Source: Hyphomonas atlantica corrig.
GTDB lineage: Bacteria > Pseudomonadota > Alphaproteobacteria > Caulobacterales > Hyphomonadaceae
Assembly: GCF_000682715.1 (NCBI RefSeq)
Contig: NZ_AWFH01000023.1
Span: 124,001-188,000 of the forward strand
Reading direction: 5' to 3'
DNA length: 64,000 bases
Below the pieces are notes generated by a model. The model made no database searches, was not told the DNA's origin, and saw nothing but the letters and a program-made list of their open reading frames with translations. Made by a program: the position numbers and the translations under genes. Shown here in pieces: positions 46,385 through 48,307 of the stretch. Positions within the stretch are counted from its first letter, which is position 1, and the number at the start of each line of letters is the position of its first letter.

Positions 46385-46482
46385 GCCGGAACGCGCGATT
46401 TAGGCGACCAGAACGGTCGGGTCAACCGCCTCTTGCACCCTATGGCTTGAAGTCGCCACAATTTTCGCATCACCCTCGCCAG

Positions 46483-47190
46483 ATGAGACGTATATGGCCC
46501 CTAATTCCTGTGATTCTTCTGGTTGGCGCCTGCGCCAGCCAACCTGCACCTGTTCAGCAGAAGACCGATTCGGATGGCAATCTGACGGAAAATGTCGGAG
46601 ACGCTGCCGGCAGCGCCTACACCCAGACACGTGACGGCCTTGGCGATGCGGCCCTGTCTCCGCTGGAAGATCTGAATCTGCGCCGCCAGCCTATTCCGGA
46701 AATCCTGAAAGGCGTCGAAAGCCCCTACAAGCTGCCGCAGGAAATGACCTGCGAACAGATCACGGCGCAGATTGCGGCACTCGACGCGGTGCTTGGCCCT
46801 GACTGGGATACGCCTGTTCCTGACGAGCGGCTGCGCACCGAGAAACTTGCTGATTCTGCGTCAGACGCCACGCTGGGCGCGATTGCGTCAGAGGCGCGTG
46901 GTCTGATCCCGTTCCGCGGCATCGTGCGCAAGGCCACCGGCGCGGAAAGCTATGAGAAGAAATACAACACCGCCTTCAAGATCGGCGCTCAGCAGCGCGC
47001 CTACCTGAAAGGAATGGGACTGGCCAAGGATTGCCCCCTGCCCGCCCGGCCGGACTTTACTGCAAAGCGGGACCCCACAGCGGTTACCTATAAGGGGGAT
47101 ACCCCCACTGCTCCGAACGAGCCCGCCGCCTATGATGCCTACCAGCAGAAGCAGCTGGACAATCTTACGCCCGTTCATCCTTCGGACTAG
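46483..47190 (+). CDS. Putative lipoprotein, unknown function
   Basis: This 235-residue protein has an N-terminal signal peptide with lipobox VGAC near residue 18. A Gln/Asp-rich linker leads to an amphipathic region whose [19 protein letters not shown] helix (near 87) carries one cysteine. A Gly/Ala-rich segment with [22 protein letters not shown] near 127 resembles a small helical hairpin. A second conserved-looking cysteine is in [10 protein letters not shown] do not recognise the family. The ATG at 46483 is preferred to the upstream TTG. It overlaps converging tgt by 26 bases. Confidence 0.75.
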
Positions 47191-48307
47191 ATTTCGTCGA
47201 CGCCCAGGCTGTCTGCAAACGCGTGCGCAGCGCCTCAAACCGCCCTTCGGCGATGGAGGCGCGGATTTCCTGCATCAACGCCTGAAAGAACGCGGTATTG
47301 TGCCAGCTTAGCAGCATCGGCCCGAGATACTCGCCGGCCTTGAACAGGTGGTGATAGTAAGCGCGGGAATAGTCCTGGCTCGCCGGGCAGTTCACAGCCT
47401 CATCCAGCGGAGACACGTCTTCGGCAAAACGCGCATTCTTCACGTTCACCGGCCCATCCCAGGTCCAGGCCTGACCATGACGCCCTGACCGGGTCGGCAA
47501 CACGCAGTCAAACATGTCGATCCCGCGCGCAACGCTCTCGACCAGGTCAATCGGCTTTCCGACGCCCATCACATAACGCGGTAGATGATCCGGCAGATGC
47601 GGGACCGTCATGTCGATCGTGGCGCACATCTGATCATGCCCCTCTCCTACGGCAAGACCGCCAAGCGCGAGACCACCAAAACCTTGCGAGACGACCCCCT
47701 TGGCGGATTTCTCCCGGAGGTCTGCATAGTTCGACCCCTGAATAATTCCAAAAAGGGTCTGCGCGTCGCGGTCACCGAAGGCATCCAACGAACGCTGGCC
47801 CCAGTCCAGCGACAAATCGAGACTGCGCTCGGCCTCTTCATGGGTACAGGGATAATCTGTGCATTCATCCAGCTGCATGGAGATATCGGCACCAAGCAGG
47901 TCCGCCTGAATCTCGATGCTGCGCGCGGGCGTCAGCCGATGAGTGGAGCCATCAATATGGCTCTGGAAGGTCACCCCATCCGGATCCATCTTGCGCAGCT
48001 GCGCCAGCGACCAGACCTGAAAGCCGCCACTATCGGTCAGCATCGGACCATTCCAGTGCGCAAAAGCATGCAAGCCACCAAGACGCTGCACGCGCTCAGC
48101 GCCCGGTCGCAGCATCAGGTGATAGGTGTTGCCGAGGATGATATCCGCCCCGGCATCCTTCACCTGATCCATGTAGAGCGCCTTCACCGTGCCGGCTGTG
48201 CCGACAGGCATGAAGGCCGGCGTGCGAATGTCGCCGCGCGGTGTTTTCAGAACGCCAGTCCGGGCCTTGCCCTCAGTGGCGGAGATTTCGAAAGGAAAAA
48301 CTGCCAT
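47165..48307 (-). CDS. tgt: Queuine tRNA-ribosyltransferase with incomplete zinc site
   Basis: The 380-residue TGT has the active-site D92 in [11 protein letters not shown], the nucleophile D267 in [13 protein letters not shown], and [14 protein letters not shown] near 215. It exchanges guanine 34 for preQ1 in tRNAs with GUN anticodons. In standard enzymes zinc is held by C-x-C-x-x-C plus a histidine. Here the stretch reads V305-N-C307-P-A-S310 with H336 kept, so only C307 and H336 remain. The rest of the fold looks intact. No other queuosine gene is adjacent. Confidence 0.93.

Follow-up and report, generated by a model that had tools for sequence, protein, structure and literature searches.

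A tRNA-guanosine(34) preQ1 transglycosylase of Hyphomonas atlantica without two of the four zinc ligands, and the spread of this state in Alphaproteobacteria

The window, by which we mean the whole 64,000-nucleotide stretch of Hyphomonas atlantica DNA analysed here, carries on its minus strand a tgt gene encoding a zinc-site-less variant of the queuosine enzyme tRNA-guanosine(34) preQ1 transglycosylase (Tgt, or TGT for such enzymes in general; Table 1). The product belongs to the equivalog family TIGR00430, which it matched at 458.9 bits (cut-off 306.75), and since it was the only Tgt match in a search of the genome, there is no zinc-type back-up copy. In place of the C-x-C-x-x-C ... H quartet of zinc-binding TGTs, hereafter CCCH with Cys1 and Cys3 as its first and third cysteines, the window protein reads V-C-S-H. 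In a phmmer alignment with the Zymomonas mobilis (Zm) enzyme the zinc-site stretch is ungapped, residues 305, 307, 310 and 336 pairing with C318, C320, C323 and H349, and the alignment is anchored on both sides by the flanking motifs PLD...YSRAY.HHL and W-H-N. The initial annotation had described a Tgt without two of four zinc ligands, with the codons GTG, TGC and AGC at 305, 307 and 310 and with H336, D92 and D267 retained; the bases of the minus strand and the alignment bear out each of these points. A convergent open reading frame overlaps the 3' end of tgt by 26 bases and had no NCBIfam match at E 0.001.

Table 1. Coordinates of the tgt gene, its diagnostic residues, the neighbouring reading frame, and the Tgt-QPTR loci of other genomes
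Feature	Position	Strand	Remarks
tgt, tRNA-guanosine(34) preQ1 transglycosylase, zinc-site-less variant	47165..48307	(-)	380 aa, ATG start
V305, replacing zinc ligand Cys1 (Zm C318), GTG	47393..47395	(-)	bases and alignment
C307, sole retained cysteine (Zm C320), TGC	47387..47389	(-)	bases and alignment
S310, replacing zinc ligand Cys3 (Zm C323), AGC	47378..47380	(-)	bases and alignment
H336, fourth zinc ligand, retained (Zm H349), CAC	47300..47302	(-)	bases and alignment
Former zinc module, residues 299-345	47273..47413	(-)	omitted from trees
D92 (Zm D102, general acid/base), retained	48032..48034	(-)	alignment
D267 (Zm D280, nucleophile), retained	47507..47509	(-)	alignment
GGLAVG pocket, residues 216-221	47645..47662	(-)	pocket row; rule as reported in PMC11570991
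Convergent open reading frame	46447-47190	(+)	247 aa
Tgt-QPTR locus L166	G442:C47:62569-64505		
Tgt-QPTR locus L167	G446:C25:40846-42782		
Tgt-QPTR locus L187	G468:C10:51625-53543		

The probability that sequencing error, contamination or misalignment accounts for the lost ligands is, in our judgement, negligible. Relatives that were sequenced independently carry the same residues with synonymous differences in the site codons (TGT/TGC, AGC/AGT), which excludes a sequencing error, and the ungapped alignment with its flanking anchor words excludes a misalignment; both had been raised as possible sources of the apparent loss, as had close relatives with all cysteines. Among the loci encoding a relative, Cys1 and Cys3 are absent from all of the best 80 of 280 (Hyphomonas, Henriciella, Ponticaulis and their kin).

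The family of the window was covered by a search of 105 genomes, 100 of them with a Tgt. Of these, 33 were read at the zinc site, which is VCSH in 27, ICSH in 3 and CCCH in 3, a reading that covers 30 of the 97 genomes with a window-like Tgt; alignment of related Hyphomonadaceae proteins, which had been proposed as a check, thus finds Cys1 and Cys3 missing in 30/33. Across the class Alphaproteobacteria, 360 of 387 genomes searched gave a Tgt match. Among 175 genomes in which the site was read, 124 have CCCH, 47 lack Cys1 and Cys3 and 4 show another partial loss, and as the sample comprises the top of the similarity list plus about one genome per family below it, 47/175 is not an unbiased rate. 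By family (129 labels minus 5 NCBI-named ones, which came from the search for related loci), 24 of 124 are zinc-less throughout, 4 have no more than a partial loss, and the window's own contains both states. CCCH was found in all 57 Pseudomonadota read from outside the class and also in named E. coli, Xanthomonas and Paenibacillus; among named Alphaproteobacteria it is present in Paracoccus, Sphingomonas and Magnetococcus and replaced in Sinorhizobium meliloti (SCTN) and in Shinella and Methylobacterium (both SCAN). Because CCCH occurs outside the class as well as in part of it, we regard it as ancestral and the zinc-less state as a loss. What could have been an oddity of one gene is instead a trait of a large alphaproteobacterial clade and of scattered further lineages.

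The phylogenetic distribution was followed on a tree of 150 representatives, obtained from 172 by dropping 22 of the 31 non-alphaproteobacterial ones and built without residues 299-345. The window protein falls into a clade (SH-aLRT 91-94) of 36-39 rows, 27 of them zinc-less, which includes the S. meliloti, Shinella and Methylobacterium rows, while the remaining zinc-less rows are scattered over the tree. Parsimony gives 16 changes for any ligand loss and 15 for loss of Cys1 and Cys3, figures that do not count loss events, given the many low-support branches of a single-protein tree and possible transfer. The CCCH rows nested within the zinc-less clade may represent transfers, regains or tree error.

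The two cysteines are lost together. In an alignment of 347 rows, in which the query was added to 346 distinct proteins and the window protein is therefore counted twice, 192 rows retain both Cys1 and Cys3, 152 have neither and only 3 lack just one of them; the losses are tied to each other beyond chance, and the resulting state has been long maintained. The quartets comprise CCCH (191 rows), VCSH (56), SCSH (33), SCAN (15), ICSH (10), VSSH (8) and others, with Cys1 usually replaced by Ser, Val, Ile or Leu and Cys3 by Ser, Ala or Thr. Within the 152 zinc-less rows C307 is retained in 132 and H336 in 121, some lineages having lost the histidine too or all four ligands, as in six rows that read SVAV (twice), SWTI (twice), SWAI and HHLA. 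Five of these six ligand-free proteins (L200, L213, L334, L341 and L343) have Glu in place of Trp335, and three of the five have Trp at 307, a possible swap of the tryptophan inside the former zinc pocket.

Residue 310 tracks residue 336. Serine at 310 accompanies histidine at 336 in 119 rows and non-Ser accompanies non-His in 28, with off-diagonal counts of 3 and 2, the pairings being Ser310 with His336 and Ala or Thr310 with Asn336. As a lead, this covariation suggests a direct contact between the two side chains where the zinc was. An 82-protein zinc-less tree from which the columns of the module were excluded has 4 independent pairs, on supported branches, whose members differ in the histidine; residue 310 changes in concert in a mean of 3.8 of these, which at p 0.125 is not significant after tree correction. 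A wider comparison of columns, limited to rows with GGLAVG or GGLSVG pockets (36 of the 38 zinc-less and 71 of the 99 CCCH rows), found that positions 277, 335, 339, 183, 312, 23 and 184 differ between the two sets, but none was significant as a compensating column on independent pairs, only 3 of which lie on well-supported branches. W335 had seemed a candidate, being present in 143/152 zinc-less against 64/191 CCCH rows in raw counts, and was rejected for want of support from the independent pairs.

Outside the zinc site, the functional residues have been kept. All 152 zinc-less rows retain D92, S93, D147, Q190, G216, G217, D267, R273, R276, Y317, H320 and N337; F82 is found in 147 of them, and residue 313 is Tyr in 136 and Phe in 13 more. 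D92 and D267 are invariant in all 347 rows, and D147, Q190 and G217 are identical in the 152 zinc-less and the 191 CCCH rows, so that the window protein conserves both the catalytic Asp pair and the base-recognition residues (D156, Q203 and G230 in Z. mobilis). By the alignment offset, F82, Y313, Y317 and H320 correspond to F92, W326, Y330 and H333 of the Z. mobilis enzyme, residues described as making up an aromatic hot spot in its dimer (PMC5395182), and three of these four positions are in the former zinc module, flanked by the ligand positions. The gene is under purifying selection, with a dN/dS of 0.03-0.10 against 12 relatives that is to be taken as rough, as dS (0.97-1.9) is partly saturated.

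Conservation extends to the pathway. The window Tgt has the GGLAVG pocket that is linked to preQ1-using TGTs in a published account (PMC11570991), and it departs from queuine-salvaging TGTs, for which a GG[LS][AS]G-type pocket and absence of queA and queG are expected, as searches of its genome found queA, queG, queC and queF. A queA match is present in each of the 97 genomes of the family whose Tgt is window-like, and a queG match in 95 of them; class-wide, queA was found in 23/27 zinc-less and 52/53 CCCH genomes tested. The four zinc-less genomes without queA are G553, G083, G117 and G071, the last two of which have another type of pocket. G553 (1.5 Mb, Tgt locus L336) and G083 (1.2 Mb, L253) are small genomes that combine a zinc-less Tgt of preserved preQ1-type pocket with a QPTR transporter, and would match what has been published on Bartonella henselae and Pelagibacter. 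All three genomes of genus g266, which belongs to the window's family (G419, G420 and G421), gave no match to Tgt, QueA or QueG, and the queuosine pathway seems to have been lost in that genus.

A structure predicted by AlphaFold2 from 25 family sequences (mean pLDDT 83.0, pTM 0.86) shows, as a model, that the TGT fold is compatible with the zinc-less sequence. The former zinc module is predicted at a pLDDT of 86-94 by ten-residue block over residues 301-350, with helices at 308-311, 315-323 and 328-353, and the model superposes on Z. mobilis TGT with a Z of 49.5 and an rmsd of 1.8 Å over 365 residues. As zinc TGTs were part of its training, AlphaFold2 would produce this module whether or not a metal is bound, so that the model is silent on this point. 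Among 55 solved structures listed by sequence, none is closer than Z. mobilis TGT (PDB 1pud, 1ozm, 4dxx and others), which shares with the window protein the fold (56-60% identity in structural alignments), both catalytic aspartates, the GGLAVG pocket and the F, Y and H residues of the dimer, and differs from it in having C318, C320, C323 and H349 against V, C, S and H.

Taken together, we consider it very probable that the window encodes an active, probably metal-free Tgt in which packing and hydrogen bonds hold the former zinc module; activity, absence of metal and the kind of contact that took its place are what we infer from the comparisons above. The enzyme would be the sole working Tgt of the cell and would, as a step of de novo queuosine synthesis, insert preQ1 in place of guanine-34 in GUN tRNAs. 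Its structural zinc site would have been lost in an alphaproteobacterial ancestor when Cys1 and Cys3 were replaced jointly. The C-terminal module, which in other TGTs is stapled by zinc and forms part of the dimer interface, would still fold in the metal-free state through the packing of side chains and probably through hydrogen bonds, the contact between 310 and 336 being a candidate. The initial annotation had left it between a zinc-free enzyme stabilised otherwise and an impaired one. The sequences favour the former, while selection, residue conservation and co-occurrence with queA oppose the latter. It is true that in studied TGTs the zinc site and the barrel reportedly form a scaffold for tRNA binding (PMC6165067), and that queA is missing from some reduced genomes with a zinc-less Tgt, namely G553 and G083, as might be expected if loss of the site marked a dying gene. 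A decaying gene would hardly be expected, however, to show the low dN/dS, to retain its active-site, tRNA-contact and dimer residues, to be accompanied by queA throughout the 97 family genomes, or to persist in the zinc-less state through whole families, and we have rejected impairment as highly improbable.

Whether the enzyme still binds zinc or another metal, through C307, H336 and a new third or fourth ligand, is a separate matter. Both residues are present in the window protein and common among zinc-less rows, and they could weakly hold a metal; in addition, His277 is commoner in the zinc-less rows of the tree (28/38) than in the others (27/112). We nevertheless regard a surviving metal site as unlikely. 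S. meliloti keeps C307 only, Henriciella (VSSH) keeps H336 only and six rows have no ligand at all; the 24 columns that shifted most contain no new cysteine characteristic of the zinc-less set, and of the 3 independent pairs about 0.6 show His277 changing along with the loss of zinc. For the metal-free enzyme, a more specific and more tentative proposal, to which we give somewhat less than even odds, is that zinc is a removable staple, lost both in a large alphaproteobacterial clade and, again, in further lineages of the class, and that the candidate 310-336 contact (Ser-His or Ala/Thr-Asn) replaces the metal and would free this step of queuosine synthesis from zinc supply.

Experimental work on Alphaproteobacteria provides some points of comparison. 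The Tgt of S. meliloti strain Ak57 (L139, CP090106.1) is 57.5% identical to that of the window and likewise lacks Cys1 and Cys3, but has lost the histidine as well (S-C-T-N); its gene lies downstream of queA, which overlaps the tgt 5' end, and in strain 1021 the order is given as queA SMc01207, tgt SMc01206 (PMC3568095). According to the same source, tgt, queC and queF mutants of strain 1021 lose HeLa and nitrogen-fixation/symbiosis phenotypes, preQ1 rescues the queC and queF mutants and not those in tgt or queA, and the queA mutant has little symbiotic phenotype. The tgt mutants thus resemble other early Q-pathway mutants, the Tgt residues being known from Ak57 and the phenotypes from 1021. 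In B. henselae, a member of the Hyphomicrobiales, TGT has the same GGLAVG pocket as the window protein and is reported to give partial restoration of Q in an E. coli queDF tgt strain supplied with preQ1 (PMC11570991). The Tgt of G553, a genome that would fit Bartonella by its size, its grouping with Sinorhizobium and Shinella, its QPTR and its missing queA, reads S-C-A-N. Beyond TGTs, loss of zinc cysteines from housekeeping proteins has been described for ribosomal protein S4 (PMC3087516) and for paralogues of PyrC and HemB (PMC2770081); the PyrC and HemB2 variants are paralogues for which regulation by Zur is predicted, whereas the window Tgt is the only copy.

The zinc residues of TGT have been called highly conserved in a review (PMC4425180). 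If a large group of active TGTs needs no zinc, the metal would be a structural convenience that stands outside the mechanism, and the natural series of proteins keeping four, two, one or no ligands could be used to test how a protein substitutes for a metal staple. The family name would then be a poor ground for predicting a zinc enzyme or zinc dependence. Curated databases may annotate a zinc site only in sequences that contain the cysteines, and the zinc ligands of the E. coli enzyme were reportedly subjected to mutagenesis in the 1990s. We found no description of a zinc-less TGT in the open-access literature, to which our search was confined, and prior mention, as in subscription journals, is possible. 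Dimer contacts are located on the former zinc module, and TGT is under study as a target against shigellosis (PMC5395182).

Within the family, CCCH Tgts were found only in G442 and G446, both of the window's genus, and in G468; they are different Tgts, about 40% identical to the window protein. In all three genomes the CCCH Tgt has a GGSLG pocket, its gene directly adjoins a QPTR gene (Table 1), and queA and queG are absent. We believe that a two-gene cassette for queuine salvage has probably taken over in these genomes from both the zinc-less Tgt and the whole de novo pathway, as judged from gene content and pocket type. Two observations concern the labelling of records. The genes coaD, queA and tgt are present on CP090106.1, a 3.7 Mb sequence whose title is S. 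meliloti pSymB; as queA and tgt are given as genes of the main chromosome in strain 1021, the pSymB label may be wrong. Tgts 85-86% identical to that of the window also occur on contigs titled Candidatus Sulfopaludibacter or Acidobacteria (L082, L083, L085 and L087), bins that are probably mislabelled or contaminated.
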